The position numbers were made by a program, and so were the translations under genes. Shown here piece after piece: positions 1,556 through 20,405 of a stretch of DNA of 22,979 nt. Numbering within the stretch: position 1 is the first letter of the stretch; each line of letters opens with the position of its first letter. The notes beneath the pieces are model-generated. The model did not search any database and was not told the origin of the DNA. It saw nothing but the letters and a program-made list of their open reading frames with translations. This DNA comes from a virus: the IMG/VR virus record IMGVR_UViG_3300035181_002277, positions 1 through 22,979 of that record, one strand, 5' to 3'.

Positions 1556-1942
1556 TTAATATTCCCCTGCAAGTTCATTGTTATATTTGGCAATCAATAC
1601 GCACATACTATGGAACGCAGGGGACTCTATGTCACTATGTAATTTAATATCCCTGTCTAGACAGTATTTAACATAGCTTTGCCATGTATTATCGTGTTTT
1701 TCATGAAAGGAACATCTATTTCCTGCTAGACCCATAGGACACATAACACAATGGTCACATGCATTTAAGCTAGAATAACCTACACAATATGGGCAACTTC
1801 TACTTGTTGTAGCATTGCTTAACGGCTTACACAAATTTTGTGGCAAATCTATAATTTGCTCTTCAGGGACTAAATCAAAGTTTAGTCCAATTGTATCCCG
1901 TAGGATACAATTCTTTTGACGTAAGAATTCAGAAGTAGTCAT
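1556..1942 (-). CDS. Cys-rich hypothetical protein, probable zinc binding
   Basis: 128 aa, not recognised. The centre (residues about 50-80) carries CPYC, then CDHC, CPM and NRC followed by FH, a spacing suggestive of one or two zinc sites. The N-terminal third is ordinary soluble sequence; no signal peptide or membrane segment is visible. The ATG follows directly after the stop of the upstream paralogue gene (TAAATG), with AGGGG about 8 nt upstream, so the two are translationally linked in one minus-strand operon from promoter copy C. It could be a small DNA- or RNA-binding or host-takeover protein, but that is guesswork. Confidence 0.7.
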   Translation of the reverse strand: MTTSEFLRQKNCILRDTIGLNFDLVPEEQIIDLPQNLCKPLSNATTSRSCPYCVGYSSLNACDHCVMCPMGLAGNRCSFHEKHDNTWQSYVKYCLDRDIKLHSDIESPAFHSMCVLIAKYNNELAGEY

Positions 1943-2518
1943 TTATATCCCCTTTAATTGGTTTGGAAGTTCTCCGGTGAATTTAGTGCAATTCTTCCAA
2001 CTAATTCCGTGCCAAGATTGAAATGTTCCATCTGGAAGCACTTTATTAAGTTTACTTAAAACAATAATAGATAGAACACCATCATCCCAAAATAAACAAA
2101 ACTCACCAACTAATGGATTCAATACTTCGACAAGATCGTATGCATCACCATATAGTTCATCGCTATAGACGTATCTTCCGTTCTCTTCAAAATACATTAT
2201 ATCACCATTATCACTGAGTCCTATAACTGGATATCGCTCATGATTTCTATCAATACACAGAATACGAATTGGATCTCCACCAGATGTGTACTTCTTGCTC
2301 ATTGATATTTTCGTATCTGCTTTATCTTCTTGTTGTTCACACACTTCAATAAGATCATATTTTGGACCAAGAAAACACAAACCATCATTTTTAAATGACA
2401 ATATCGCTCCATCGTCACGTAAACCTACTACAGTGTAATCTTTGTCGTTTCTATCTGTACATAAAATTCTAATAGGTTCCCCATTTGAAAGGTAAGTTTT
2501 ACCAACTTCAATTTTCAT
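1943..2518 (-). CDS. Two-copy RILCTDR-domain protein
   Basis: 191 aa from ATG 2518. That start is chosen because GAGGAA lies 7-8 nt upstream and the ATG overlaps the upstream stop by 11 nt; a longer frame to 2608 would lie mostly inside the neighbouring gene. The N-terminal half repeats itself: residues about 1-70 (GKTYLSNGEPIRILCTDRN) and about 77-140 (KKYTSGGDPIRILCIDRN) each run to (Y)DL(I/V)EV. The protein ends with the family C-terminal part GEFCLFWDD and TFQSWHG, then KFTGELP. The family is unnamed. It looks like a small SH3-like beta domain, known to me only as phage hypothetical proteins. The tandem duplication is within one gene; single-copy paralogues are at 2508-2876 and 3365-3718. 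Confidence 0.8.
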   Translation of the reverse strand: MKIEVGKTYLSNGEPIRILCTDRNDKDYTVVGLRDDGAILSFKNDGLCFLGPKYDLIEVCEQQEDKADTKISMSKKYTSGGDPIRILCIDRNHERYPVIGLSDNGDIMYFEENGRYVYSDELYGDAYDLVEVLNPLVGEFCLFWDDGVLSIIVLSKLNKVLPDGTFQSWHGISWKNCTKFTGELPNQLKGI

Positions 2519-2876
2519 TGGTAAGTTCCTCAAGATGTTTGGGAAGCGTTCCATCAAATTTTTTACAATATTTCCAACAAGGTCCATCCCAAGATTGAAA
2601 TGTTCCATTAGTTTGCATTTTGTAAAATCTGCTCAAAATAATACTATTTTGGTCATTATTGTCCCAAAATAGACACCATTCTCCAAGCTCTGGTTCCCAT
2701 ACCTCAACAAGGTCATATTTTGAACCATACCCACATACTCCATTGATTGTAAAGTGGGCTATTGAACCATCATCTCCAATACCAATAACAGGATATTCGG
2801 TATTGTTTCTATCAGTACATAGGATACGAATTGGCTTTCTGTTACTTGTGTATTTTTTGTTCATTTCTACTTTCAT
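2508..2876 (-). CDS. RILCTDR-domain paralogue, single copy
   Basis: 122 aa. The preferred start is ATG 2876 (MKVEMNKKYTS) because AAGGA sits 8 nt upstream; an upstream ATG at 2897 has no ribosome site. The domain runs KYTSNRKPIRILCTDRN, DDGSI, KYDLVEVWEP, GEWCLFWDN, FQSWDG and KFDGTLPKHLEE. The many aromatic and Cys residues at fixed positions recur in the paralogues. It is first in the operon behind promoter copy C and overlaps the next gene by 11 nt. Function unknown; no catalytic motif is visible. Confidence 0.8.
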   Translation of the reverse strand: MKVEMNKKYTSNRKPIRILCTDRNNTEYPVIGIGDDGSIAHFTINGVCGYGSKYDLVEVWEPELGEWCLFWDNNDQNSIILSRFYKMQTNGTFQSWDGPCWKYCKKFDGTLPKHLEELTNEN

Positions 2877-2914
2877 TTCTAATCCTTCTTTCAACATATT
2901 CTTTTAATACAATA

Positions 2915-2938
2915 ATTATATCATATTAATCTTAAAAT
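2915..2938 (-). promoter_or_regulatory. Repeated phage promoter, copy C
   Basis: TGATATAAT with ATTTTAAG 10 nt upstream, 39 bp before ATG 2876. It would drive the operon 2876 to 1556. The leader shares TTCTTTCAACATATTC (plus-strand reading) with copy A at 300-315. Confidence 0.65.
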
Positions 2939-2940
2939 AA

Positions 2941-3000
2941 CATTAATACTATTTTAACATACAATGATATGCTTTTTGAATAATAATGACTACATTACGA
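2941..3000 (-). repeat. Second remnant of the duplicated gene 3' end
   Basis: The minus strand reads SHYYSKSISLYV, similar to THCYSKSIEWYV at the end of the 4492-5256 protein, and lies directly upstream of promoter copy C. It is more diverged than the copy at 361-410 and no longer continues a gene. Confidence 0.45.
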
Positions 3001-3364
3001 TATTTACAGTTACGCTAATCAATTTTACCTACAATCTTAATATAGAAATGTATCACACACCCTCTATAGATGTAGATATCTGATTAAATACTCAATCAAT
3101 TAAAAATTGATTTCATAGGTAAGAATAAACTCTTTATAGTGATACATAGTAGCGTATAATGTGAAGGAGTGGTGTAAGAATCGATGATGCAAGATTCTCC
3201 GAAAGCGAAAGATGACATAGTTGGGTGTAGCTCCTAAGCGCTTATGATAAAACTAGAAAATAAAAACCCATATTAACCTGGATATACACAGAAATGGAAA
3301 ATGAAACCAAAGTCGGAATGCACTCCTATTTGGATGTTTGATATTAATTTGATTCTTGGATTTC
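3001..3364. other. Gene-free interval with a possible plus-strand signal
   Basis: No convincing gene. On the plus strand GCGTATAATG (near 3153) is followed by GAAGGAG and, at 3184, a 17-codon frame; the spacing is poor. An inverted repeat AGAATC/GATTCT (about 3178-3199) and the GCGAAAGATG stretch after it could belong to a small RNA. The part 3250-3364 is AT-rich downstream sequence of the neighbouring gene. Confidence 0.25.
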
Positions 3365-3718
3365 TCACACTTGCAAATGCTCAGGTAATGTTCCATCAAA
3401 TTTTGAACAATATTCCCAAGTAATTCCGTTCCACGATTGGAACGTCCCATCAGACTGCATTTTATAAAATCTACTTAAAGCAGCACCATTTTGTTTATTT
3501 GAATCCCAAAAAAGGCACCACTCACCATGCTGTGGTTCCCAAATTTCAACTAGATTGTAGTCTTTGTTACTCTCACATTTACCATCTTCTGTATAAAACA
3601 AAATCTTACCAGTACTATCCATTCCAATAACTGAATACTTATTATCAGGTCTATCTGTGCATAATATTCTAATATCTCCCTTTAGAGATGTATATTTCTT
3701 TTCCATTAAAATTTTCAT
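3365..3718 (-). CDS. RILCTDR-domain paralogue, single copy
   Basis: 117 aa. Same domain order as the 2508-2876 protein: KYTSLKGDIRILCTDRPD, STGKILFYTEDGK, YNLVEIWEP, GEWCLFWDS, LSRFYKMQSDGTFQSWNG, then KFDGTLPEHL. The Cys of RILC and of the YC(S/K)KFDGTLP part are kept. The start ATG 3718 has AAAGGA 7-8 nt upstream. It is separated from the next upstream gene by about 105 bp and may be read through from the promoter at 4455-4478. Function unknown. Confidence 0.8.
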   Translation of the reverse strand: MKILMEKKYTSLKGDIRILCTDRPDNKYSVIGMDSTGKILFYTEDGKCESNKDYNLVEIWEPQHGEWCLFWDSNKQNGAALSRFYKMQSDGTFQSWNGITWEYCSKFDGTLPEHLQV

Positions 3719-3825
3719 TACAATCCTTTCAAATTATCGGGAAGTTCCCACCTATTTTTTATTCAACCATCAGTAAAACTATCACTTCAAATAGTGACTC
3801 ACCCTTGAGTTTTCATCATGTATAT

Positions 3826-4416
3826 TTAAATTTGTGAATCATCACCTAACCACGCAGAACCATATACATGTGCGGCGCCATATACATGAGCTTTACCACT
3901 CACCCTTGAGTTTTCGCACACATGTGCTCTTTCATATATTAATGCATTTTCATATACTAATGCATTATCGTATATACGTGAGTTACCAGACACACATGCA
4001 TAACCATATACATTTGCATTATTATATACTCTTGCGCTACCATATACTAATGCATTACCATATACATTTGCATTATCATATACTCTTGCATTATAAAATA
4101 CTTGCGCTCTGTCTCTTATGATTGCTTTACCATATACATTTGCATTATCATATACTCTTGCATTACCATATACTAATGCATTGTCATATACCCATGCATT
4201 ATAGTATACTTGTGCATTATCATATACTTGTGCATCACCGTATACTTGGGCTTCATCATATACCCAAGAATTACCATCTTGTGCTAGATTGGATTCGCTT
4301 TCGACCCATCCGCCGATGTCGCCAATGGATACATCACCAAAATTTTTAAGCGCAACTACTCTATATAGAGTACGCCCATCAAATTGTTTGCTCTCACCAA
4401 GACTATATTTTTTCAT
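3826..4416 (-). CDS. YdcK-like left-handed beta-helix protein
   Basis: 196 aa. After an N-terminal segment (residues about 1-50) with DVSIGDIGGWVESESNLAQD that resembles E. coli YdcK, the rest is hexapeptide repeats of the form (N/D)A(x)VY(G/D) that predict a left-handed parallel beta-helix as in acyltransferases and LpxA-fold proteins. No transferase catalytic His or loop is identifiable, so a binding or structural role is as likely as an enzymatic one. ATG 4416 has AAGGA 6 nt upstream and promoter copy D upstream. Just after the stop, 3797-3814 repeats 18 nt of the coding sequence (3898-3915), so a repeat has been lost or shifted out of frame at the 3' end. Confidence 0.8.
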   Translation of the reverse strand: MKKYSLGESKQFDGRTLYRVVALKNFGDVSIGDIGGWVESESNLAQDGNSWVYDEAQVYGDAQVYDNAQVYYNAWVYDNALVYGNARVYDNANVYGKAIIRDRAQVFYNARVYDNANVYGNALVYGSARVYNNANVYGYACVSGNSRIYDNALVYENALIYERAHVCENSRVSGKAHVYGAAHVYGSAWLGDDSQI

Positions 4417-4454
4417 TTTCTATCCTTCTTTTCTTCTTTTCTTTTGATACAATA

Positions 4455-4478
4455 ATTATATCATATTAATCTTAAAAC
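4455..4478 (-). promoter_or_regulatory. Repeated phage promoter, copy D
   Basis: TGATATAAT with GTTTTAAG 10 nt upstream, about 40 bp before ATG 4416 of the beta-helix gene. It lies 14 bp past the stop of the 4492-5256 gene. Confidence 0.6.
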
Positions 4479-4491
4479 AGCATTAATATTA

Positions 4492-5256
4492 TTAACTAAC
4501 ATACCATTCGATGCTTTTTGAGTAACAATGGGTTTTTACCTCATCGTCCCAATCTTCATTGGAAATATATTGACGGACATTTACTCTATCTTTTGAATGA
4601 GCCATTTTTTGCCCGTATTTTCTACGTCGTCCATCATTCCAATAAGTTTTCCAGAAAGATCCTTTGTTTATTGGTTTACCGTACAAGAATATGGTTTGAT
4701 TATAAAGATTAAAATCGCGAATTTTTTCATCTTCTTTTTTTGCAGCTTCCCAATCAAGTTCAACTTTATCGTAAGTATCACTTAGTTTGTGAACTTCAAT
4801 TGGATTTCTCCAAGTTATTCCTAGAACATCTAGGAGTGCATTTCTAGTTTCAAAATCAAAATATCCGTGGCGATAAATGTCATTATAAATTTTCATTTTC
4901 TTATGATGATAATGAGTACTTTTTTTTCTTACAAGAACTTCATATTTAGACCCATCCATGAAATCTCGTTCCACATATACATCTTCATAAGAATATGTTC
5001 TCCAAGTAACTAATGCTTTGAAAACATCAGCAGTTTTTTGATATGTTTTATTATTTTCAAAAACTTTGACCAATTTATTTTCCAAACGATAAACATCTGG
5101 TCTTATGCGAGTATCATTGTTATGTGTTCTTTTACCATCAAAAATTCTGTAAACTGCTTTAGCTTTATCTTTCAAGAAGTTTTTGCGAGTCTGTTTTTTG
5201 CGTCTAGTATCTTTATGATTCCACCCGCTTACATAATTTTTCCATTGTCCTTGCAT
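4492..5256 (-). CDS. Hypothetical protein, 254 aa
   Basis: Not recognised. A basic N-terminal region (RRKKQTRKNFLKDKAK) is followed by a mixed helical protein rich in aromatic and charged residues, with a basic HYHHKKMK stretch and a Lys/Arg-rich GRRRKYGQK near the C-terminus. No signal peptide or membrane segment. A TTG at 5268 would add four residues; I prefer ATG 5256, although neither start has a strong ribosome site. The basic composition suggests nucleic-acid contact, which is inference. Its 3' end (KTHCYSKSIEW) recurs as out-of-context fragments at 361-410 and 2941-3000. Confidence 0.6.
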   Translation of the reverse strand: MQGQWKNYVSGWNHKDTRRKKQTRKNFLKDKAKAVYRIFDGKRTHNNDTRIRPDVYRLENKLVKVFENNKTYQKTADVFKALVTWRTYSYEDVYVERDFMDGSKYEVLVRKKSTHYHHKKMKIYNDIYRHGYFDFETRNALLDVLGITWRNPIEVHKLSDTYDKVELDWEAAKKEDEKIRDFNLYNQTIFLYGKPINKGSFWKTYWNDGRRRKYGQKMAHSKDRVNVRQYISNEDWDDEVKTHCYSKSIEWYVS

Positions 5257-5376
5257 TTTTTCATCCAAGATGTTATAAATTTAACTTAAGTCAAGACAAC
5301 TTAGGTTCAGTTTTCGCTTTCATATTAAACCTTAAATATTTATTATGAAGTGTCACAAGAACCTTCATTTGAAAAT

Positions 5377-5771
5377 TTAATTTATTTCATTAAGTTTTTT
5401 ATAAAGATAGAAAAATATTCTATCAAGAATTAAATCTTTATTTTCATCATCTATCAAGGAATCTTCAATTTTAGATAAAGTATTAGAAATTTTCCATTGT
5501 TTCTCTATTGAGTAATCAATGTAATCACACCAATCAATAACAGAATTATTTTGTTTAAGTTCATCTAATACAAATATTAGAGGAATTCCTATACAATCTG
5601 TAAATTTACCAATACCTTTAACTACAATCTTTCCATCATTAGTTCTTCCAGATTGTGTTAAAATATGATTACGAATTCTTTTCTTTACACTAGATTTAGG
5701 TCGGCGTTTAGCTGTGAACTATCAACCTCTCTTCCTACAGGTAGCATTATTGGGTTATCTAGATTCATCAT
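5377..5771 (-). pseudogene. Frameshifted hypothetical gene
   Basis: From ATG 5771, which follows the previous stop by one base, the frame gives 28 codons (LDNPIMLPVGREVDSSQ) and stops at 5685. A long open frame in the -1 register runs from about 5720 to a stop at 5377 and reads KRRPKSSVKKRIRNHILTQ, then KFTDCIGIPLIFVLDELKQ, IDWCDYIDYSIEKQW and FYLYKKLNEIN. It has no start codon of its own. Joining the two near GATAGTTC would give about 130 aa. I see no classic slippery heptamer, so a one-base indel (natural or sequencing) is more likely than programmed frameshifting. The upstream gap 5257-5376 holds nothing else. Confidence 0.65.
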
Positions 5772-5772
5772 A

Positions 5773-6078
5773 TTATTTACCTTTGGTTGGGTATTTAGAA
5801 TCTAATTCATCAATGTAAGCCAATGGACTAGTTCCAGGTTTAAGATCATGAATTTTTTCAAATCCATTTTCAGAAGTAATTACAGATTCTTCACTTTCGA
5901 TTGACCCTTTATTTTTCTTCCAACCTTTTTTGACCATAAATTTTCCGTCTGAAGGATTTATAGATCCCCATTCAACATGTGAATCTCCAATTGCTTCTAC
6001 AAAATACTTTTTTCCGGTTCGCATTGAGGTTACTATAAACCTTCCAGTGTCAGAAGATATTTCAAATTTATTTTTCAT
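5773..6078 (-). CDS. Conserved T4-type hypothetical protein
   Basis: 101 aa. It contains GRFIVTSMRTGKKYFVEAIG, then SHVEWGSINPSDGK and TSENGFEKIHDLKPGTSPL, a pattern I recall from conserved hypothetical proteins of T4-like myoviruses; no function is known. The ATG lies 2 nt after the stop of the upstream gene, whose end (AGAGGAG) supplies the ribosome site, so the pair is co-translated. Soluble, no membrane segment. Confidence 0.75.
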   Translation of the reverse strand: MKNKFEISSDTGRFIVTSMRTGKKYFVEAIGDSHVEWGSINPSDGKFMVKKGWKKNKGSIESEESVITSENGFEKIHDLKPGTSPLAYIDELDSKYPTKGK

Positions 6079-6080
6079 TT

Positions 6081-6434
6081 TTATACTCCTCTACAATTAT
6101 GATAATCAATGGGTCTTCCATTGATAGTTTCTGTTACATCTTCATTATATTCACTCATACCATGTTCAGTAAAAACTTGTTTTAGTGTTTTTGTATTAGG
6201 TATTTTGTTTTCTTTTTCAGCCAAAAATTCTGAGGCTCTAACGGCTTCAATTTGTTTGCGAATATAACGCATGAAAATCATTGCCTTGTCTTGTTTAAGA
6301 AATGTTCCATCACCTGTGTCCTCTACAGGAACGGGGAACATAAAGCCATCTGTGGTTTTGTACCAAAGTTCACCTTTTCTGTAAAACTCAAAGGTGACTT
6401 GTTTGTTATCTTTCACCATTTCTTTAATATTCAT
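6081..6434 (-). CDS. Conserved T4-type hypothetical protein
   Basis: 117 aa. The N-terminal part (VTFEFYRKGELWYKTTDGF, MFPVPVEDTGDGTF, DKAMIFMRYIRKQ) matches a conserved small protein I recall from many T4-like phages; its role is unknown. The C-terminal third, ending ETINGRPIDYHNCRGV, is less familiar. It is followed after 2 nt by the 6078 gene. Upstream lies tRNA-Arg(TCG). Confidence 0.75.
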   Translation of the reverse strand: MNIKEMVKDNKQVTFEFYRKGELWYKTTDGFMFPVPVEDTGDGTFLKQDKAMIFMRYIRKQIEAVRASEFLAEKENKIPNTKTLKQVFTEHGMSEYNEDVTETINGRPIDYHNCRGV

Positions 6435-6457
6435 TGTTTTTCTTTATTTTTAGTTTT

Positions 6458-6528
6458 TGGAGCCCCATATGCGAGTCGAACACATTCATCAAGCTTCGAA
6501 GGCTCAAGTCTAATCCCTTAGATGGGGC
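6458..6528 (-). tRNA. tRNA-Arg(TCG), compact
   Basis: Acceptor GCCCCAT/ATGGGGC, T-arm ATGTG TTCGACT CGCAT, anticodon loop CTTCGAA with T33 and anticodon TCG, CCA encoded. The body is only 67 nt: the D-stem has three pairs, there is no base 26, and positions 8-9 are CT. The discriminator is T. It stands alone between two protein genes. Confidence 0.75.
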
Positions 6529-6538
6529 ATATTGAGGC

Positions 6539-6973
6539 TTACGCCCCTTTTAACATTTCTTCTAGTGAATATTCACCATTAGAAGAAACTTTAATAATAT
6601 TGTCCATCCAATCATAATCAAGAATAGGGCGAGTTTCTGAACCGGTAATACGAACTTTAATAATACTAGCACATGAGAATGGATATGTAATGCAATCATT
6701 TAATACATATACATCGAAAGTTTCGCCCGTATCTCCAGTATGGTAGATAATCTTATCTGCTTCAGTTACGGGACATGCCCATATACCTTCACCATTACCT
6801 GATTTGAAGTTTTTCTCTGAATCAGGAAGATTTACTTTAATGTAATCTTCTTCATTGAGATTCAATTCACCTGAATAAAACTCTTTTGCTTTAGAAATTA
6901 ATCCTAAACTTTTTTGATTCTTCACAATATTAGCAATTTCTTTCAATTGCTCTGATGTTAATTCTCTTTTCAT
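6539..6973 (-). CDS. Hypothetical protein, 144 aa
   Basis: Not recognised. A short N-terminal helix (LTSEQLKEIANIVKNQK) precedes a beta-rich domain with GNGEGIWACPVTEADK, HTGDTGETFDVYVLNDC, and FSCASIIKVRITGSETRP, and the protein ends SLEEMLKGA. It has four Cys residues without zinc-like pairing. No signal peptide or membrane segment. Upstream, TGTATAATG at about 6999-7007 could be an extended -10, without the box seen in the repeated promoters. It is followed by tRNA-Arg(TCG). Confidence 0.75.
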   Translation of the reverse strand: MKRELTSEQLKEIANIVKNQKSLGLISKAKEFYSGELNLNEEDYIKVNLPDSEKNFKSGNGEGIWACPVTEADKIIYHTGDTGETFDVYVLNDCITYPFSCASIIKVRITGSETRPILDYDWMDNIIKVSSNGEYSLEEMLKGA

Positions 6974-7073
6974 GTAAGTCCTTCATATTGATATGTAACA
7001 TTATACATAAATGAACATTAATACAACATAAAGTTCTTATATTACATCTTCAATAAAATTTAATATAAGACCT

Positions 7074-7149
7074 TGGTACCACCTGAGGGACTCGAACCCC
7101 CATAGCCGGTTTCGTAGACCGGTGCTCTATCCCGTTGAGCTAAAGCGGC
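7074..7149 (-). tRNA. tRNA-Arg(ACG)
   Basis: Acceptor GCCGCTT/AGGTGGT (with G-T pairs), D-arm GCTC/GAGC, anticodon stem CCGGT/ACCGG with loop CTACGAA, T-arm GGGGG TTCGAGT CCCTC, A73 and encoded CCA. The A34 would need deamination to inosine to read CGC and CGA. Confidence 0.9.
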
Positions 7150-7336
7150 AAGAAGATGTTTTTGTCAGATTTTATTTTTTATTGAGGCAGTTTACCCTTT
7201 CGGAACATCATAACCCATTCTGCCTATTCCCTCTGTTTGCTATAGTTGAGACTTCTACGGTTCCCGCTAAAGTGCTGGTTACTAATCGTTTTTTGACTGA
7301 GCGGGTTATACGAATAAACCCATAAAAACAATCAAA
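7150..7336 (-). ncRNA. Structured non-coding interval, candidate small RNA
   Basis: Between the stop at 7337 and tRNA-Arg(ACG) no minus-strand frame is open, but stems are evident: GGGTT/AACCC, CCCGCT/AGCGGG (mutually exclusive with the first), and AGGCAG/CTGCCT enclosing CC-GAAA-GG, a GNRA-type tetraloop. The stretch GCAAACAGAGGGAATAGG between them is single-stranded-looking. It is not a tmRNA, and no group I intron core was found by eye. It may be transcribed from promoter copy E. Confidence 0.4.
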
Positions 7337-7534
7337 TTAACGGTTAATTTTTTTAACAAATTCCGTGAAATATACTGAACTTCGTTTTCCATTTATGGCT
7401 TCTACAGTAACATATCCTGAAGGTCTTGAATTTATGGCTAAAACAATATCTCCATTTTTAAGTAAAAAACTATTAGGATAATTAGCTTCCCTTAAAATTT
7501 TCTTTTTATGGTTTTTCAATTCAATCTCTGTCAT
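7337..7534 (-). CDS. Small hypothetical protein, 65 aa
   Basis: A short basic N-terminal helix (KNHKKKILREA) is followed by a compact beta pattern (LLKNGDIVLAIN, SGYVTVEAINGKRSSVYF), which could be an SH3-like or KOW-like fold; this is inference from pattern only. ATG 7534 has AAGGA about 7 nt upstream and promoter copy E beyond. Function unknown. Confidence 0.7.
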   Translation of the reverse strand: MTEIELKNHKKKILREANYPNSFLLKNGDIVLAINSRPSGYVTVEAINGKRSSVYFTEFVKKINR

Positions 7535-7561
7535 AATTAATCCTTCTTTTTTCTTACAATA

Positions 7562-7585
7562 ATTATATCATAATAAACTTAAAAA
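7562..7585 (-). promoter_or_regulatory. Repeated phage promoter, copy E
   Basis: TGATATAAT with TTTTTAAG 10 nt upstream, about 28 bp before ATG 7534. The flanking sequence differs from copies A-D, so the two boxes stand out as the conserved part. Confidence 0.6.
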
Positions 7586-7594
7586 GAATATTAA

Positions 7595-8047
7595 CTATTT
7601 TTTGCTTTTTGTATATCTATCTGCAACATGTGAAGCACACCATGCATCTGGCTTACAGACTGGCTCTACACCAATAATACCCCAGATCATACCTTTAGCG
7701 GCACTGTATGCAACATTAGATCCTTCATTTTCATCTGGATTAACATCAAGATGTACTTCAAAATCTCTTTCAATCAATACATCTTCTAACATAGAATACA
7801 ATTCTGAAACTAGATGAACTTCTTTCATCATACGATTGAAAGGTTTAGATAGTTTAGCATCCATTATTTTTTCATAATAAACATTTTTAAAAATTTTTGA
7901 TTTATCTTTTTGATAAACAACCAAGACTGTTACAAATCTAACATTCTTGTGCTTAGCTCTCTGAGAGTCACATCCCAAATAGATTTTAGCATTAGGATTA
8001 TCAGAAATGTAATTTATCATTTCTTGTAACTCTTCATTACTAAACAT
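7595..8047 (-). CDS. YkuK-like RNase H-fold protein (DUF458 family)
   Basis: 150 aa, close to the usual length of the YkuK/DUF458 family. IYLGCDSQRAKHKNVRFVTV at residues about 22-41 is the first beta-hairpin of an RNase H-like fold, with Asp27 where the first metal ligand is expected. VHLDVNPDENEGSN (about 98-111) and KPDAWCASHVADR (about 132-144) supply further acidic residues. A role in RNA-DNA hybrid or structured-RNA cleavage is plausible from the fold; no activity can be read from the sequence. AAGGT lies about 7 nt upstream of the ATG. The stop is about 10 bp upstream of promoter copy E. The gene lies downstream of the main tRNA array and could be read from it. Confidence 0.75.
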   Translation of the reverse strand: MFSNEELQEMINYISDNPNAKIYLGCDSQRAKHKNVRFVTVLVVYQKDKSKIFKNVYYEKIMDAKLSKPFNRMMKEVHLVSELYSMLEDVLIERDFEVHLDVNPDENEGSNVAYSAAKGMIWGIIGVEPVCKPDAWCASHVADRYTKSKK

Positions 8048-11617: not shown

Positions 11618-11629
11618 ATTTTATCTTTT

Positions 11630-11722
11630 TGGAGGGCAATGTCGGGTACGATCCGACAAGAGTTTTTTAGGCTCTGCTAGTTTTCAAGACTAGTGCAATT
11701 ATTCCATTTCTGCCAATTGCCC
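11630..11722 (-). tRNA. tRNA-Ser(TGA), class II, swapped T54/A58
   Basis: Acceptor GGGCAAT/ATTGCCC, stem CTAGT/ACTAG with loop CTTGAAA, long variable arm with GAG/CTC, T-arm GTCGG ATCGTAC CCGAC, CCA encoded. The T-loop has A54 and T58, the reverse of the conserved T54-A58 pair. Discriminator T, whereas bacterial Ser tRNAs normally have G. Confidence 0.85.
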
Positions 11723-11727
11723 ATGTT

Positions 11728-11801
11728 TGGTAGTTCTAGAAGGTACTGACCCTTCGTCTATCCCTTATCAAGGGATTACTCTGCCATTGAGCTATAGAAC
11801 T
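11728..11801 (-). tRNA. tRNA-Ile(GAT), copy 2
   Basis: Acceptor AGTTCTA/TAGAACT, stem ATCCC/GGGAT with loop TTGATAA, T-stem GAAGG/CCTTC, CCA encoded. The T-loop is GTCAGTA, with G at 54 and 58. Confidence 0.88.
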
Positions 11802-11809
11802 ATTTGTTT

Positions 11810-11884
11810 TGGCGATCTTGAGGAATTTTGAAATCCCGACCCTTCCGCTGACAACGGAGCACTCTGCCTCTGAGCTACAAGATC
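11810..11884 (-). tRNA. tRNA-Asp(GTC), copy 1
   Basis: Acceptor GATCTTG/CAAGATC, loop TTGTCAG, G73 as for Asp, CCA encoded. The T-arm GGGAT TTCAAAA TTCCT closes with a T-T mismatch and the outer anticodon-stem pair is C-A. Confidence 0.85.
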
Positions 11885-11895
11885 ATTTAAATTAT

Positions 11896-11972
11896 TGGTG
11901 GAGAATACGGGTTACGCTCCCGTCTTCCTACGTTGCAAGCGTAGAGTAATCAACCTAATATACTAATTCCCC
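11896..11972 (-). tRNA. tRNA-Ala(TGC), swapped T54/A58
   Basis: Acceptor GGGGAAT/ATTCTCC, stem CTACG/CGTAG with loop CTTGCAA, T-stem ACGGG/CCCGT, CCA encoded. T-loop AGCGTAA has A54, G55 and T58. The acceptor lacks the G3-U70 pair that alanyl-tRNA synthetase normally needs; instead G3 faces T70 as written (GGG/CTCC), so the wobble may in fact be present at 3-70. Confidence 0.82.
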
Positions 11973-13244: not shown

Positions 13245-13874
13245 ATGGCTTGGAACTTGAATAATAAAACCAATGAATATATATTACATCGAAACCAATC
13301 TAAAGAATTAATTGATATATATGGCGTCCAATTGAGTTATTTCAAGATAACCAATAAAGGCAAAAATACTGTTTTTCAAGAATATACATACAAAGAATCT
13401 AATCCCAATAATGTTTTTTCAATTATGATGTATCCAGAGAATGTAGAAGCATTTGACAACGCTGGTGATTTATTTAGCAAGTTTGGTATGCAGATTACGG
13501 ATACGATTAATTTGATTGTAAGCACAGAAACATTTAAAGACATATATGACTTAACCGATTTTAAAAATGCATTTCAATCAGTGGGAGATATTATAAAAAC
13601 TCCTAGAGGAAAATTATTTGAAGTAACAGGTGTTGAAGATGAAGTTCCCGGGTTGAGCAATATATTCACATCAAATAACGGAAAAAATGTATTAATGTTA
13701 AAATGTAACATATACAATTATAAACCATCAGACAAGGTTCCAGAAATTGTAGATCCTAGTGAGTATGATTTTTCAAATTTAGATTCCGTCTTTAACGGTC
13801 AGAAAGAAGAACAAGAAGTAGAAACTACAACATATACAGCTCCTAGAGATTCTGTATTTGGAGATTTAGGATAA
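13245..13874 (+). CDS. Neck protein, T4 gp14-like
   Basis: 209 aa; T4 gp14 is about 256. The best marker is LFSKFGMQITDTINLIVS at residues about 77-94, matching FFSKFGMQVQDEVTL of T4 gp14. It is followed by the segment GDIIKTPRGKLFEVTGVEDE, which parallels the T4 GDLIYFP...LFEI region. In T4 this protein works with gp13 to close the filled head and form the tail attachment site. The C-terminal part (PSEYDFSNLDSVFNGQKEE, then a Thr/Ser-rich PRDSVFGDLG) also ends like gp14, with an acidic low-complexity tail. It is the first gene of the plus-strand late operon. It lies apart from the portal cluster, unlike in T4. Confidence 0.85.
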   Translation: MAWNLNNKTNEYILHRNQSKELIDIYGVQLSYFKITNKGKNTVFQEYTYKESNPNNVFSIMMYPENVEAFDNAGDLFSKFGMQITDTINLIVSTETFKDIYDLTDFKNAFQSVGDIIKTPRGKLFEVTGVEDEVPGLSNIFTSNNGKNVLMLKCNIYNYKPSDKVPEIVDPSEYDFSNLDSVFNGQKEEQEVETTTYTAPRDSVFGDLG

Positions 13875-13885
13875 GGAGATAAATA

Positions 13886-14215
13886 ATGACTACAGTTTTA
13901 AATTCTACAATGGGTGTAACTAATTTTACATCTATTCCAACAGCACCTACAGCTACTAAAGGGGATAGTTCACTTAAATTAGCTACTACAGAATTCGTTA
14001 TGAATGCTTTATCAGGCGTAAGTACAACTAAATACAAATTCGTAGCAACAGACGGACAAACTGTATTTAATGCTGGTGCAGTTTTAGTTGACCCAATGGT
14101 TTATCTAAACGGTGTTCTTCAAACAAAAGATTTGAGTTATACATTCACACCTGGTGCAACATCAATAACCTTTTTAGATGCTAGGGTTCTTAACGAAACT
14201 GTAGTAATTGCATAA
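13886..14215 (+). CDS. Small tail-fibre/appendage-type protein, 109 aa
   Basis: The N-terminal segment PTAPTATKGDSSLKLATTEFV is the motif that joins modules in many phage tail-fibre and baseplate appendage proteins. The rest (DGQTVFNAGAVLVDPMVYLN, GVLQTKDLSYTFTPGATS) is a beta-sandwich-like domain also seen in fibre proteins. It is much shorter than a whole fibre, so it is probably an adaptor or a trimeric tip piece that carries the kelch-like proteins coded next; that role is inferred from position. The ATG has AAGGAG 8 nt upstream, and 11 nt separate it from the gp14-like gene. Confidence 0.7.
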   Translation: MTTVLNSTMGVTNFTSIPTAPTATKGDSSLKLATTEFVMNALSGVSTTKYKFVATDGQTVFNAGAVLVDPMVYLNGVLQTKDLSYTFTPGATSITFLDARVLNETVVIA

Positions 14216-14224
14216 GGATTATTA

Positions 14225-15268
14225 ATGTATGAAAATTCAATAGTAGTAGTAAAAAATTGTACATCAACCGGCATAGATGTAATTCCTATTAATTCATTAA
14301 TATTAAATAAAGATACTGGTGATATTTTTTTATTAACAAATAAAACAAACGTATCATCTACTACACAATTTTGTGATGTAGTAGGTAAAGTATTAATCGC
14401 TAGTCTTGTTATAAGTGGAGCATTGTTTTATGGCGGTAGTAATAATATAAATCTAAATTTAGCTACCATGCTATCAGCAACGGCTACATTAGTTCAAGCT
14501 GAAAAGAGTGTAGGTACAGCTAGATATGGATTAGCTGGAGCTAACGTAGGTACAAATGCTTTATTTTATGGTGGATATACTACAACATATGTATCTACCA
14601 CTACTTTATTATCACCAACAATTAATTTAGTACAATCAGAGACTAATGTAGGTACAGCTAGGGCTACCCCAGCTGGGGCTAAGGTTGGTACAAATGCTTT
14701 ATTTTACGGTGGTGCCGTTGATTCAAGCTATTATGGGGTAGATACCGTAACATTACTATCACCAACAGCTACATTAGTTCAAGCTGAAACAAATCTTGGA
14801 ACATCTATGTACTCATTAGCTGGAGCTAACGTAGGTACAAATGCTTTATTTTATGGTGGAGCTAATTATGGAAGCTATAATACAGCTTCTGTAGTATCTC
14901 CATTGGGCGTCTTAGTATCTCAGTCTACTAATATAGGTACAGCTAGATTTGGCCTAGCAGGAGCAAATGTTGGTACGAATGCTTTATTTTATGGTGGAAT
15001 ACAAATCTGGCCCACTGTTCTCAATACAACTACTTTGTTATCACCGACGGCTGTTTTATTACAAGCTGAAACAAGTGTTGGATCAGTAAAATGGTCAAAT
15101 TCTGGAGTTAATGTTGGTACAAATGCCCTATTTTATGCTGGGTGTAATGATGCATCAACAACATTTATCAATACTACTACACTACTATCACCTACCGCAA
15201 CATTAGTACAGCCAGAGACTAATGTTGGAACATCAGGCCGTCATTACTTAGGAGGAGCATTAATATGA
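14225..15268 (+). CDS. Kelch-like six-repeat adhesin, paralogue 1
   Basis: 347 aa. An N-terminal domain of about 65 residues (MYENSIVVVKNCTSTGIDVI) is shared by all four paralogues. Six repeats of about 45-50 residues follow, each with ALFYGG, a variable loop, TLLSPTATLVQAETNVGT, then (A/S)xxxLAGANVGTN. The repeats resemble kelch/galactose-oxidase blades, and six copies suggest a six-bladed propeller closed by the C-terminal half-blade. Variation is confined to the few residues after FYGG and after GTA(R/K). A surface adhesin or fibre tip is the likely role, by position next to fibre genes. AAGGA precedes the ATG; the stop overlaps the next ATG (ATGA). Confidence 0.75.
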   Translation: MYENSIVVVKNCTSTGIDVIPINSLILNKDTGDIFLLTNKTNVSSTTQFCDVVGKVLIASLVISGALFYGGSNNINLNLATMLSATATLVQAEKSVGTARYGLAGANVGTNALFYGGYTTTYVSTTTLLSPTINLVQSETNVGTARATPAGAKVGTNALFYGGAVDSSYYGVDTVTLLSPTATLVQAETNLGTSMYSLAGANVGTNALFYGGANYGSYNTASVVSPLGVLVSQSTNIGTARFGLAGANVGTNALFYGGIQIWPTVLNTTTLLSPTAVLLQAETSVGSVKWSNSGVNVGTNALFYAGCNDASTTFINTTTLLSPTATLVQPETNVGTSGRHYLGGALI

Positions 15269-16383
15269 GTTTTGAAAGACAGTCTCTTGTTGTTTTTAAA
15301 GATGAGTCATCAACTGGAATAAACTTTGTTGCAAATAATAGATTTGTATTTGTGAACTCAACTGGATATATGTATATTAAAGTTAATTCAACTAATATCA
15401 CTACCAATACCACCATAGCACAAGCAATTTCAGGTGCAAATTTAATTTTAATAACTGGAGTTATTCCTGCTCCACCAACAACGACAACAACGACAACAAC
15501 GACAACAACGACAACAACTACTACAACAACGTCAACTAGTTTTACCAAAGCTTTATTTCATAATGGGATAGATAGTTCACCAACAAGTGTATCAACAACC
15601 ACATTGTTATCTTCAACGGCTACTTTAGTTCAAGCAGAAACTTCAGTAGGTACAGCAAAATTTGGCGTAGCAGGAGCCAATGTTGGTACAAATGCATTAT
15701 TTTATGGCGGAACAGATAATTCTTATTATTACAACACAGTTACATTATTATCACCAACTGCGACATTGGTTCAAGCTGAGTCTACTGTTGGGTCAGGAAG
15801 AAGTTATATATCTGGAGCAAATGTTGGTACAAATGCACTATTCTATGCTGGGTACAATTCTGGATATAAGAATACGGCAACAATATTGACACCTACTGGT
15901 TCATTGGTTCAAGCTGAGTCAACTGTAGGAACAGTGAGAACTGGAACGGGTGGAGCCAATGTTGGTACAAATGTATTATTTTATGGTGGAACAAATGGTT
16001 CATATTTTAATACAGCAACACTGTTATCATCAACAGCTACTTTGGTACAAGCGGAATCAAATGTTGGCACAGCACGGTCATATACTGCTGGAGCTAATGT
16101 TGGTACGAATGCTTTATTCTACGGTGGGTATAATGGTTCATACTTAAATACAGCAACACTGTTATCATCAACAGCTACTTTGGTACAAGCTGAATCAAAT
16201 GTTGGTTCTACTAGACTTGGACCAGCAGGAGCTAACGTAGGTACAAATGCTTTATATTATGCTGGGGCTAATAGTGTTAAATTAAATACTGCTACATTAT
16301 TATCGCCAACAGCTACTTTAGTTCAAGCAGAAACTAATATAGGTAGTACACCTAGACATGGACTCGCAGGATCTAGTTTATAA
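15265..16383 (+). CDS. Kelch-like six-repeat adhesin, paralogue 2, with Thr linker
   Basis: 372 aa. It starts with the shared N-domain (SLVVFKDESSTGINFV). A linker of 18 consecutive Thr after APP, at about residues 72-90, is encoded by a 9-bp microsatellite. Then STSFTKALFHNG opens six kelch-like repeats of the same form as the neighbour (ALFYGG, TLLSSTATLVQAESNVGT). It ends RHGLAGSSL, a half-blade as in the paralogues. The start overlaps the upstream stop by 4 nt with GGAGGAG in front. The poly-Thr linker probably separates the N-domain anchor from the propeller and may be glycosylated, which is speculation. Confidence 0.75.
   Translation: MSFERQSLVVFKDESSTGINFVANNRFVFVNSTGYMYIKVNSTNITTNTTIAQAISGANLILITGVIPAPPTTTTTTTTTTTTTTTTTTSTSFTKALFHNGIDSSPTSVSTTTLLSSTATLVQAETSVGTAKFGVAGANVGTNALFYGGTDNSYYYNTVTLLSPTATLVQAESTVGSGRSYISGANVGTNALFYAGYNSGYKNTATILTPTGSLVQAESTVGTVRTGTGGANVGTNVLFYGGTNGSYFNTATLLSSTATLVQAESNVGTARSYTAGANVGTNALFYGGYNGSYLNTATLLSSTATLVQAESNVGSTRLGPAGANVGTNALYYAGANSVKLNTATLLSPTATLVQAETNIGSTPRHGLAGSSL
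15476..15535 (+). repeat. ACA/ACG trinucleotide microsatellite (9-bp unit)
   Basis: Tandem units of ACGACAACA (about four, then ACTACTACAACAACG) encode the Thr tract. Units of 9 bp keep the reading frame, so slippage would change linker length rather than switch the gene off. Confidence 0.85.
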
Positions 16384-16386
16384 ATA
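16379..16386 (+). promoter_or_regulatory. T4-type late promoter box
   Basis: Exact TATAAATA overlapping the stop of the kelch-like gene, 30 bp before ATG 16416. It gives the second half of the fibre cassette its own late start. Confidence 0.6.
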
Positions 16387-16415
16387 TTAAAATATAATAT
16401 GAAAGAAGAGTAAAA

Positions 16416-17054
16416 ATGGCATCACAAGTAAATTCACAATATGCATATCTTAACCTTATTAATGGAGAGACAATTTGGGAGAGATTAAGAATAGTTCGTA
16501 ATTTTATTGAGGATAGAAAAATTGCAAAAAAATTACAAACTACACAAGAACTAAAACATCAAGCATACATTGCTAAAGTTCAAGAAGCTACTAAAGAATC
16601 AGAAAGATTATTTGCTCAAGCAGAGTTAGAAGAATTTGAAGCTCATCAAGAACAGCAAACAGATGGTTATAAAAAGCTTGATGATGAACTTGCTTTCTTG
16701 TTAAAGTATGAAGCGGAATTAGCATCAATTGCTGAACAGTCTCGTATAGAAGGTAAATCAGATGATGAAATGTACCAAATAAATATGGAAACAGAGGTTT
16801 ATTTAAGAAACCTTAAAAAAATTGAAACAGAACAAGTGGCAAGAACCTTAGGTATTTCTCAAGCAACCGCTGAAGAAGCTATGAGAATACCTCAAATGCG
16901 TGTACAGTTGTTAAATACAGCCACAGCAATGATGCTACCTGATACTGATGAGAACAAAGCTAATTTAATAGCAAATGGTATTAACCTTAATAACATACCA
17001 CTAAGTGTTCAAGAGACTCTAAGTATAACCAAATTACTAACACAAGGAAACTAA
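16416..17054 (+). CDS. Coiled-coil hypothetical protein, 212 aa
   Basis: Mostly alpha-helical and charged. Residues about 25-85 (IVRNFIEDRKIAKKLQTTQE, then AKVQEATKESERLFAQAELE) and about 85-145 form long heptad-like helices. The C-terminus (ATAMMLPDTDENKANLIANG) is less charged. No signal peptide or membrane segment. Its place between kelch-like adhesins and a DUF4376-type gene, behind its own late box, suggests a fibre-associated or chaperone-like role; this is inference. The ribosome site is AAAGAAGAG before the ATG, and the next gene starts 2 nt after its stop. Confidence 0.65.
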   Translation: MASQVNSQYAYLNLINGETIWERLRIVRNFIEDRKIAKKLQTTQELKHQAYIAKVQEATKESERLFAQAELEEFEAHQEQQTDGYKKLDDELAFLLKYEAELASIAEQSRIEGKSDDEMYQINMETEVYLRNLKKIETEQVARTLGISQATAEEAMRIPQMRVQLLNTATAMMLPDTDENKANLIANGINLNNIPLSVQETLSITKLLTQGN

Positions 17055-17056
17055 AA

Positions 17057-17572
17057 ATGAAACTCGTAACATGGCTAGCGAAAGATTCAGAAACTCTATT
17101 TGGGAAATTTGACCCAATGTCTAATACGGATACAAGAACTAATGTTCAAATTATAGCAATTGGGCAATTTGAACCAGACGCAAGTCAATACATTGGTCTA
17201 TCTAATGAAGATGTTACCCCAAAAGAATGTGCTGAAATTTTGAATGTTCCCGAAAATACATTTTATAACATATATAGCCCTATTAATGGATATTTTTTAA
17301 CGGATGCTTGGGTTGAATCAATATTGAAAGATTTGCGTCAAAAAGAACTAGATAACTTAACAGTAAAAGTTGAAGATCATGTTTATGATGCTGATGAAGT
17401 ATCTCAAGATCGTATGGCAAGAGCCTATATGATTATTGGTGATACAGGAACCATTGATTGGAAATTAGCAGATAATAAAGTATTTAATGTTTCAGGTGGA
17501 GAGATTAAACAAGCTTTGACACTCGCTGGAAAGGCTCAAACAGCTCTATGGGCTAAATACACACTTAATTAA
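17057..17572 (+). CDS. DUF4376-type tail-fibre-associated protein
   Basis: 171 aa. The C-terminal part from about residue 105 (NLTVKVEDHVYDADEVSQDR, MARAYMIIGDTGTIDWKLAD, GGEIKQALTLAGKAQTALW) matches the DUF4376 pattern common beside phage tail-fibre genes and tail-fibre assembly proteins: VxVxxxxYDADExSQxRMAR, W.LADN, and ELxxALxLAGxxQxxLW. The N-terminal part (MKLVTWLAKDSETLFGKFDP) is not recognised. It is likely a fibre-assembly or fibre-attached accessory for the adjacent kelch-like protein. It is tightly coupled to the upstream coiled-coil gene (2 nt gap). Confidence 0.7.
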   Translation: MKLVTWLAKDSETLFGKFDPMSNTDTRTNVQIIAIGQFEPDASQYIGLSNEDVTPKECAEILNVPENTFYNIYSPINGYFLTDAWVESILKDLRQKELDNLTVKVEDHVYDADEVSQDRMARAYMIIGDTGTIDWKLADNKVFNVSGGEIKQALTLAGKAQTALWAKYTLN

Positions 17573-17584
17573 CAAGGATATAAT

Positions 17585-18667
17585 ATGGGGGCATCACAGT
17601 CTCAGTCTCAAATTTCTGGATTTACCAGAAACCCTATATGGGTGTTTAAGGATGAAACTTCAACTGGGTTAGATAAGATTCCAGTAGGAGAGATTGTCGC
17701 TATTAAATCCAACAAATTACTATATCAATGTGTTAGTAAAGTTGGAGTCACTAGTAGCACACAAGTTGGTTCAGCTACTGGATTATTACCTTATACATTT
17801 AAGGTAACAACCTCTTTTACCAAAGCTTTGTTCTATGGGGGGTGGATATCAACCGTTGTGGCTACCACGACTCTATTATCTTCAACAGCTACTTTAGTTC
17901 AAGCAGAAACCAATATAGGTACAGCTAGATATGGATTATCAGGATCTAACGTGGGAACTAATGCTTTATTCTACGGTGGGTGGATATCAACAACAGCTGT
18001 TTCCACAGCTACTTTATTATCACCAACCGCTACTTTGGTTCAGGCAGAAACAAATGTAGGTACAGCTAGACGTGAAGTAGCAGGAGCAAAAGTAGGTACA
18101 AATGCTTTATTTTATGCTGGATGGGGTTCAACAACAGCTGTTTCCACAGCTACTCTATTATCTTCAACAGCTACATTAGTGCAAGCCGAAACAAATGTAG
18201 GTGTAGCTAGATATGGATTATCAGGAGCTAATGTAGGAACTAATGCTTTATTCTACGGTGGATTTGCCCTTTCAGGAGCTATACCAACAGCTACTCTATT
18301 ATCTTCAACAGCTACTTTAGTTCAAGCAGAAACCAATATAGGTACAGCTAGATATGGATTATCAGGATCTAACGTGGGAACTAATGCTTTATTCTACGGT
18401 GGATATGGCAATAACATAATATCTACCACGACTCTATTATCACCAACAGCTACTTTAGTTCAAGCAGAAACCAATATAGGTTCAGCTAGATATGAATTAG
18501 CAGGAGCTAATGTAGGAACTAATGCATTATTCTATGGTGGAGATACGGGAACTAGCTCTCACGTAGCTGTGAAAACAGCTACTCTATTATCTTCAACAGC
18601 TACTTTAGTTCAAGCAGAAACTAATGTAGGTACAGCTAGATATTACCTAGCAGGAGCATCATTATGA
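17585..18667 (+). CDS. Kelch-like six-repeat adhesin, paralogue 3
   Basis: 360 aa. Residues about 1-80 are the shared N-domain (NPIWVFKDETSTGLDKIPVG) extended by a Ser/Gln-rich start. SFTKALFYGG at about residue 78 opens six repeats, the most uniform of the three genes (TLLSSTATLVQAETNIGTAR, YGLSGSNVGTNALFYGG). Variable residues follow FYGG in each repeat (WISTVVAT, WISTTAVS, FALSGAIP, YGNNIIST). It ends RYYLAGASL. A 110-bp stretch occurs twice without mismatch. AAGGA stands about 7 nt before the ATG. The stop overlaps the start of a truncated fourth paralogue. Confidence 0.75.
   Translation: MGASQSQSQISGFTRNPIWVFKDETSTGLDKIPVGEIVAIKSNKLLYQCVSKVGVTSSTQVGSATGLLPYTFKVTTSFTKALFYGGWISTVVATTTLLSSTATLVQAETNIGTARYGLSGSNVGTNALFYGGWISTTAVSTATLLSPTATLVQAETNVGTARREVAGAKVGTNALFYAGWGSTTAVSTATLLSSTATLVQAETNVGVARYGLSGANVGTNALFYGGFALSGAIPTATLLSSTATLVQAETNIGTARYGLSGSNVGTNALFYGGYGNNIISTTTLLSPTATLVQAETNIGSARYELAGANVGTNALFYGGDTGTSSHVAVKTATLLSSTATLVQAETNVGTARYYLAGASL
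17870..17979 (+). repeat. 110-bp perfect direct repeat, copy 1
   Basis: Identical over 110 bases to 18293-18402. It spans one framework from TLLSSTA to the ALFYGG box. Recombination between copies would remove three blades in frame (423 bp). Confidence 0.9.
18293..18402 (+). repeat. 110-bp perfect direct repeat, copy 2
   Basis: Second copy of the 17870-17979 repeat within the same gene. The blades between the copies are diverged, so the identity looks recent or maintained by gene conversion. Confidence 0.9.
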
Positions 18668-18732
18668 GTTATATAAAACAATCATTAGTAACATTTAATG
18701 ATACATCTGCCTTAGGGTTAGATAAAATTTAA
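18664..18732 (+). pseudogene. Truncated fourth kelch-like paralogue (22 codons)
   Basis: ATG overlaps the stop of paralogue 3 (ATGA), with AGGAG upstream. It reads MSYIKQSLVTFNDTSALGLD then KI and stop, matching the family N-domain (QSLVVFKDESSTGINF; VFKDETSTGLDKIP). After the stop no kelch-like sequence follows, so the body has been deleted or the operon end was cut here. Confidence 0.75.
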
Positions 18733-19092: not shown

Positions 19093-19112
19093 CCTTTAGC
19101 TTACGCTAAAGG
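19093..19112 (-). terminator. Hairpin holding the capsid stop codon
   Basis: CCTTTAGC GTAA GCTAAAGG, then TTTTACCTTTTATTT. The capsid stop codon TAA lies in the 4-nt loop. With the next hairpin it makes a tandem terminator. Confidence 0.7.
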
Positions 19113-20405
19113 AGATGTTTTACCTGCTGCTACGGTTGCAAAATTAACACCGAATGTTGCGATGTAATTTTCTGGGTTCAATGGAGTTGTATCCAAAGCG
19201 TAACGTTGTGACAAGATGATTGCTGGTTGACCTGATTCTTGCAATGTAACACGTTGGAATGACGCTGGTACATATGGGCTGAAGAATACAGCTGAATCAC
19301 GACGATCTTGACCTTTGTAAAGGATAGTTGCATAATCGCTTGCTGCGAATGTATCAACAACAACTTTATAACGTCCATCAAATGTTCCTGCTACTGCAGT
19401 TGACATACCATCTACAGTTGATTGAATTGCAGCTGCACTGAATCCACCAAGTGCTTCAAGAGCAACTGATACTTTAGGAGACACTAACAATGTGTTACCT
19501 GCACCACGACGAGTCAAACGATTGATTTTTGAACTTTCATCAGCAAGTTTAATTGCCAACATTCTGTAACGTTCAATTTCCCAACGACCGTCATAACCAC
19601 CAATTGCAGCATCTGCTACTACACGTGCTGTATTGTTAACTTTAGAAATGATCTCACGGTCAATCTCTGCTTGCATTTCATAACTCATGATTCCCATAAG
19701 TTCTTCATCTGCATTCATACCATGTTGAGATTTCAAATCTTGGTACATTTCAAGGGTATATTTACCTTTCAATTTACGTGTACGAGCTTCAACAGTTTTA
19801 CGAGAAAGTTCAAATCCGATTTCGTTCATGTCGTCGCCAAGAATCTCACCATCCGCTGTTGAATATGATCCAGTATAACCTTTAAGTACTTTGTTAAAAG
19901 TAGCTTCATTCGTATAAGTATCTAAAACATGAACGTCTGTAAAAATTACATCACCTTGAGCTTTAGTTGTGCCAGCCCAAAGAACTTTTACAACATTACC
20001 ATCAGTTTCTTTGTAAAGAACGTCTCCGCCAACAATAACTTTTGCATCATCTGCAACTGCAACTACAAGAATTTGTTTTTTATTACTTGGAGCGATTTTG
20101 TTGATACTATTACCAGTATAACGACTTGTCATTGAATAAATGAAACCAGTTGGTCCATTCAACGGTTGAACACCAGCGATTTCGTTAGCGATCAAATTAG
20201 GGTAAACACGACGAACTAAAGGCATAAGGATTTTTGTAAATCCTGCTACGTCAGCAGCTTGTGTACCTTCTTTCAACATATCGCTAATAGCTTTTTCTTG
20301 TTGTTCAAGAATAACTGCCATAGTAGACATATCTTTTTTGCTGATTGATGAGTAGTTTTCACTCAACAATTGCTTTTCAAATTTTTCAGTAAGATTGAAA
20401 TCCAT
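19101..20405 (-). CDS. Major capsid protein, T4 gp23-like
   Basis: 434 aa, shorter than T4 gp23 (521). The family signature is near residues 60-90: LMPLVRRVYPNLIANEIAGV, then QPLNGPTGFIYSM, matching T4 LVRRTHPDLIANEIVGVQPMSGPTG. It would form the HK97-fold head shell. Candidate prohead-protease sites of the T4 type (L/I-x-E) in the N-terminal arm are L14-S-E16 and L44-K-E46, either of which would remove a propeptide at maturation. The C-terminal part includes LSQRYALDTTPLNPENYIAT, also typical. It lies at the end of the head operon, has its own late box upstream and is followed by tandem terminators, as expected for the most abundant virion protein. AAGGA lies about 9 nt before ATG 20405. Confidence 0.95.
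   Translation of the reverse strand: MDFNLTEKFEKQLLSENYSSISKKDMSTMAVILEQQEKAISDMLKEGTQAADVAGFTKILMPLVRRVYPNLIANEIAGVQPLNGPTGFIYSMTSRYTGNSINKIAPSNKKQILVVAVADDAKVIVGGDVLYKETDGNVVKVLWAGTTKAQGDVIFTDVHVLDTYTNEATFNKVLKGYTGSYSTADGEILGDDMNEIGFELSRKTVEARTRKLKGKYTLEMYQDLKSQHGMNADEELMGIMSYEMQAEIDREIISKVNNTARVVADAAIGGYDGRWEIERYRMLAIKLADESSKINRLTRRGAGNTLLVSPKVSVALEALGGFSAAAIQSTVDGMSTAVAGTFDGRYKVVVDTFAASDYATILYKGQDRRDSAVFFSPYVPASFQRVTLQESGQPAIILSQRYALDTTPLNPENYIATFGVNFATVAAGKTSPLA

Follow-up and report, generated by a model that had tools for sequence, protein, structure and literature searches.

Kelch propellers consist of six repeats of 44-55 aa, and in KLHL3 it is the B-C and D-A loops that give the substrate pocket its shape (PMC9022995). 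Highly repetitive beta-propellers, Kelch proteins included, have been amplified from single blades (PMC9218822). Among phages, the jumbo phage vB_PcaM_CBB encodes the Kelch-domain proteins CBB_550, CBB_552 and CBB_554, of which CBB_552 was found in the virion (PMC5259590), and a module of tail fibre and chaperone is common to the Alteromonas phages A5 and V22 (PMC10579305). The HNWD receptors of the fungus Podospora show high internal conservation, repeat-number polymorphism and 80-100% identity between repeats (PMC12222747).

Here we examined a virus record from a T4-like myovirus (the window, meaning the whole analysed stretch of 22,979 bases) that encodes three paralogous repeat proteins, K1, K2 and K3. 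We read them as virion adhesins, that is, as a kelch-fold host-recognition fibre cassette of the myovirus that evolves by duplication, tract copying and module exchange, and we put the probability of this reading at roughly two in three.

A repeat-gene cassette between head genes

The cassette is bordered on the left by the gene for a gp14-like head closure or neck protein (13245..13874, plus strand; Pfam T4_neck-protein, E 2.5e-11; phrog_679 head closure Hc2) and on the right by that for the major capsid protein gp23 (19101..20405, minus strand; Pfam Gp23, 6.9e-98). The minus strand also carries a scaffold protein and gp20, and the window contains 23 tRNA genes. All genes within the cassette lie on the plus strand. 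After gp14 comes a small tail-fibre-like, DUF4183-like protein (13886..14215; PHROG tail fiber matches, best 4.5e-08), then K1 (14225..15268, 347 aa) and K2 (15265..16383, 372 aa), with the K2 start codon overlapping the K1 stop. These are followed by a gene for a 212-aa protein (16416..17054), one for a DUF4376 or tail-fibre-associated protein (17057..17572; Pfam DUF4376, 2.1e-05; phrog_1141 and phrog_2837 tail), and K3 (17585..18667, 360 aa), whose stop codon overlaps the start of a fourth copy. A promoter scan gave no more matches than did shuffled sequences. Repeats of other kinds occur elsewhere in the window, in a pentapeptide-like repeat protein (460-1089) and in a protein that has an array of 18/36-bp repeats (3826-4416).

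In each of K1, K2 and K3 a small N-terminal domain precedes the repeats, of which there are exactly six, and the protein closes with a half-blade whose last residues are (G)ASL or similar. In K2, the domain and the propeller are joined by a linker of 18 threonines, encoded by a (CAACAACGA)n tract at 15476..15530 (plus strand); this nine-base tract is a candidate slippage site that would alter linker length, and its length was equal in all four contigs that cover it. Repeats are 41-49 aa long when the blades of relatives are included, with internal repeats of 44-49 aa and a last repeat of 41-47 aa in the six full-length proteins compared, every one of which has six blades. The fourth copy (18664..18732, plus strand) is a gene remnant of 22 N-terminal codons and a stop (MSYIKQSLVTFNDTSALGLDKI, then the stop codon). 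Beyond these codons, a weak relic of the N-terminal domain persists in frame, detectable against K2 only (p 0.01, vs. 0.29 for K1 and 0.86 for K3).

An earlier note made from this DNA had described 14225-18732 as a kelch-like cassette, with three full paralogues of six repeats each, a near-invariant framework marked by ALFYGG, TLLSPTATLVQAETNVGT and LAGANVGTN, a 110-nt perfect repeat inside one gene and a fourth copy cut to 22 codons. All of these elements were recovered. The span itself holds good for the three paralogues, but it also includes two unrelated non-repeat genes (16416-17054 and 17057-17572) that had been missed. The same note placed the differences between blades after FYGG; they are indeed concentrated there, but a second variable spot is formed by the two or three residues that follow a conserved arginine (columns 43-45; up to 3.3 bits).

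For comparison we used L008, whose blades (R8) belong to the syntenic relative of K3, L009 (R9), L010 (R10) and the sister phage L014. L009 and L010 have phrog_38-type large terminase genes. Both contigs are fragments, and in the stretches fetched from them blastn similarity to the window extends to nothing but kelch sequence and a single block. That block, plus strand, starts at the K2 linker/propeller junction and runs through the 212-aa gene into the start of the next gene, with 73.7% identity over 15539-17210 in L009 and 73.2% over 15539-17063 in L010. Their six-blade gene has a different N-terminal adaptor (MPLY.NG.LIPENVAN), and the 212-aa protein beside it is 85-88% identical to that of the window. 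The same fibre tip and adjacent gene are therefore found in unrelated phages, at 73-74% DNA identity and within the 15539-17210 block only. No significant family match for the 212-aa protein was found in Pfam, PHROG or NCBIfam, and it is possibly a fibre chaperone or accessory. Searches with the N-terminal domain returned the same phages only; in 50,697 phage records, tblastn found no match to K3, the L009 protein or the 212-aa protein, and two scans of bacterial genomes found no relative.

In L014, whose capsid protein is 79% identical to that of the window, the same site holds a decayed blade remnant fused mid-gene into a homologue of the small fibre gene (13886..14215), one more N-terminal stub, and a tail-collar fibre whose end is a Kelch domain that Pfam does recognise. 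Judged from these gene arrangements, the site behaves like a locus at which fibres are exchanged. L014 also encodes a 472-aa protein with seven RCC1 repeats (1796-3214; Pfam RCC1, 1.2e-50), another type of propeller that is probably fibre-borne, and its large terminase gene (3211-6235) seems to be interrupted by an intein-like insert, whereas the L008 homologue (6219-7937) is uninterrupted. A tRNA stretch of the window (11627-11904) is 95.7% identical to L014, compared to only ~75% for the structural genes.

Genes for receptor-binding proteins are looked for in or beside fibre clusters, and that is where the kelch genes lie: directly 3' of a tail-fibre gene in L009 and adjoining tail-fibre genes in L010. 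From this context here and in relatives, K1-K3 are probably located on the virion and bind a receptor. The position between the head genes gp14 and gp23, and a small N-terminal domain without annotated anchor function, would also suit a virion decoration or a cell-surface protein that does not bind a receptor, for instance one that decorates capsid or tail, or one that is exported and modifies the host. We regard such a role as unlikely, since the neighbours and exchange partners of the cassette are tail-fibre genes and L014 has a tail-collar fibre gene in the corresponding position.

Copying between blades and stability across samples

Codon sharing is higher among the blades of one gene (0.61) than between blades of different genes (0.53; 0 of 2000 permutations), and framework nucleotide identity within genes is 0.67-0.84; between genes, blade number carries nearly no information (0.526 vs. 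0.528). Exact tracts of 46 nt in K1, 44 nt in K2 and 110 nt in K3 exceed those in all 500 of 500 simulations in which synonymous codons were shuffled; within K3, the longest in-register identical run was at most 44 nt in 500 such trials. The two copies of the 110-nt repeat (plus strand) form the framework between the loops of K3 blades 1 and 2 (17870..17979) and of blades 4 and 5 (18293..18402), each beginning where one loop ends and stopping where the next begins, and the flanking loops are unrelated. Long exact tracts also occur in R8 and R10, but not in R9. Because blades are alike within a gene and exact tracts in K1-K3 exceed the simulations, the sequences argue that segments have been copied between blades within each gene, and the recombination marks that the earlier note had seen do support exchange between blades.

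K3 is the most recently homogenised copy. Its synonymous divergence is lower in the framework (pS 0.31) than in the loops (0.64), suggesting that the frames were copied more recently than the loops. Compared with R8, K3 weakly keeps its blade order, with 7 of 720 pairings as good, which suggests that turnover is slow; a strong claim that blade orthology is absent was softened in view of this positional signal. Loops at the same position in K3 and R8 are no more alike than loops at other positions (0.166 vs. 0.166), though the capsid proteins are 77% identical.

Four contigs, assembled independently from different samples (the window and three others), show no difference across the cassette, and only three substitutions separate the window from the other three in 13.4 kb, all in its last 91 bases. 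These substitutions (22889, 22910 and 22931) are spaced 21 bases apart and may reflect a contig-end mixture or a strain variant. Since the same cassette was assembled without difference in three further contigs, the 110-nt perfect repeat is unlikely to be an assembly artefact.

Recombination between constant frames could in principle act as an active generator of diversity, shuffling loops or blades so that host range varies within a population. Exact framework tracts between unrelated loops and the more recent copying of the K3 frames are what such a generator would leave, and the fungal HNWD receptors work in this way on WD40 propellers (PMC12222747). However, the four contigs do not differ anywhere in the cassette, blade number is always six, and the partly kept order between K3 and R8 indicates that any shuffling is slow, so that we find this explanation improbable. 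No evidence of blade-number variation or of variation between samples was found. The earlier proposal of an antigen-variation or host-range locus diversified by blade exchange is thus retained for the marks of exchange and a probable part in host recognition; active antigenic variation, or a mechanism acting on blade number, is not supported, given the invariance of the four contigs and of the blade count and the absence of any reverse transcriptase match in ten virus records (see below).

Fold and variable face

The repeats of K1-K3 apparently form a six-bladed propeller of kelch fold, the fold being supported by one model of moderate confidence. Three-blade fragments were stacked into an alignment of 24 rows, and one of five models of three K3 blades folded (pLDDT 65.7, pTM 0.58). 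DSSP assigned it four strands per complete 47-residue repeat, i.e., a four-stranded meander. Its best PDB matches are mostly Kelch domains (KLHL proteins, Keap1 and the Kelch-derived SAKe designs), with E from 2.6e-3 to 2e-2, none reaching 0.001, and TM up to 0.71; a three-blade fragment of Keap1 had TM 0.69/0.70 against the model. The best viral match was BFVD A0A6J7XFV6, and the third-best was a phage protein named Kelch repeat. These matches and the model support the kelch-like fold suggested earlier. A full-length AlphaFold model built from six sequences had pLDDT of ~30 over the repeats and ~80 over the N-terminal domain, and in deeper full-propeller alignments the fragments only re-aligned in their own register. 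The number and length of the repeats agree with the Kelch pattern of six repeats of 44-55 aa, and the C-terminal half-blade would complete a ring. Six repeats in all six full-length relatives suggest that blade number is held constant by a ring-closure constraint.

We call these proteins kelch-fold; they are not filed in the Pfam Kelch family. The Kelch models of Pfam and NCBIfam did not recognise the K proteins, phmmer and profile searches of the PDB gave no significant Kelch match, hhalign of the window proteins to the Kelch proteins of CBB and of the sister phage was non-significant, and so was a profile-profile comparison with the Kelch blades of CBB and NanM. GG is present in 26 of the 36 blades and the second G in all 36, but the Kelch signature of a double glycine after the second strand and a tryptophan in the last was not found, the framework of the 36 blades having no conserved tryptophan. 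This want of a sequence link to Kelch, together with a sole PDB profile match to a hexapeptide beta-helix (E 0.65), would favour a beta fold other than a propeller, such as a solenoid or beta-roll. Such a fold is, in our judgement, distinctly improbable, as the repeats stay fixed at six despite recombination, and the one folded model combines four-strand repeats with Kelch structural matches.

Over the 36 blades, mean entropy is high in the B-C loop (2.22 bits) and the D-A connection (2.07 bits), whereas the C-D turn (0.78 bits) and the A-B turn (0.75 bits) are conserved. By the strand topology of an antiparallel four-strand blade, rather than by measured coordinates, the B-C and D-A loops should lie on one face of the propeller, the one that serves for binding in solved Kelch domains, and the conserved turns on the opposite one; variable residues on one face are what the earlier note had proposed to check for. 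Ordinary Kelch proteins likewise combine variable B-C loops with a constant frame. Framework pN/pS is 0.23-0.41, compared to ~0.9-1.5 in the loops, whose alignments are partly arbitrary; the loop values would fit relaxed or diversifying change, the two not being separated here. Template-directed loop mutagenesis by a diversity-generating retroelement, which usually targets just this pattern of hypervariable sites set in a constant frame, here that of a probable phage adhesin, is very improbable and was rejected, since, in keeping with the earlier remark that neither a reverse transcriptase nor a template repeat was found in the window, RVT_1 was not found in ten incomplete virus records (76- and 78-kb ones included) while positive controls were detected, no further kelch copy that could serve as template occurs in the 76-kb record, and loop lengths vary, which mutagenic retrohoming does not produce.

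Proposed mechanism and comparison with known systems

In the host-recognition cassette as we read it, the N-terminal domain presumably attaches each K protein to the virion, and the B-C and D-A loops would form the variable face that probably contacts a host surface structure, while purifying selection for the fold would hold the framework. Diversity would arise slowly: gene duplication would give rise to paralogues, framework tracts would be copied between the blades of one gene by gene conversion or unequal crossover, loops would change by point mutation and small indels, the propeller and its 212-aa neighbour would be transferred between phages, and old copies would decay to remnants. A bolder and rather unlikely extension is that the frames serve as built-in recombination homology: phage recombination would copy tracts from the frame of one blade to that of another and leave the loops different, and the result would be a receptor-binding repertoire that is combinatorial but slow, carried by three paralogues and passed between phage families along with a dedicated 212-aa partner. 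If the cassette reading is right, K1-K3 represent a kelch-fold family of phage adhesins that standard domain models miss, in which a variable binding face is clearly set apart from a constant frame, paralogues stand in tandem, and propeller and partner gene form a transferable unit that crosses phage lineages. They would then be a natural series of scaffolds on which to ask how a symmetric propeller alters its specificity of binding and how host recognition is traded among phages.

The window resembles CBB in having three stand-alone proteins of six-blade size (265-285 aa in CBB) clustered with structural genes. However, the CBB proteins match Pfam Kelch strongly and those of the window do not, and the blades of the window are far more alike and accompanied by a separate N-terminal domain. 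As in A5 and V22, a host-recognition gene and an adjacent small gene are common to distantly related phages, but the fibre fold is different and the 212-aa protein is only a putative chaperone. With the HNWD receptors the cassette shares propeller repeats homogenised within a gene and hypervariable sites on the binding surface, here a presumed one; those are fungal WD40 proteins, however, and neither their repeat-number polymorphism nor their 80-100% repeat identity was found here, where there are always six blades and framework nucleotide identity is lower, at 0.67-0.84. Within-gene blade similarity and disrupted copies are also features of the amplified propellers (PMC9218822), but the paralogues described here lie in a phage fibre locus, and the text of that study names no phage. 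The closest match among viral models, A0A6J7XFV6 (E 1.1e-5, TM 0.74, 34% identity), is an uncharacterised protein of an uncultured Caudovirales phage. The locus combines features known separately, in proteins that escape Pfam and are read as a variant of the phage Kelch proteins already known.
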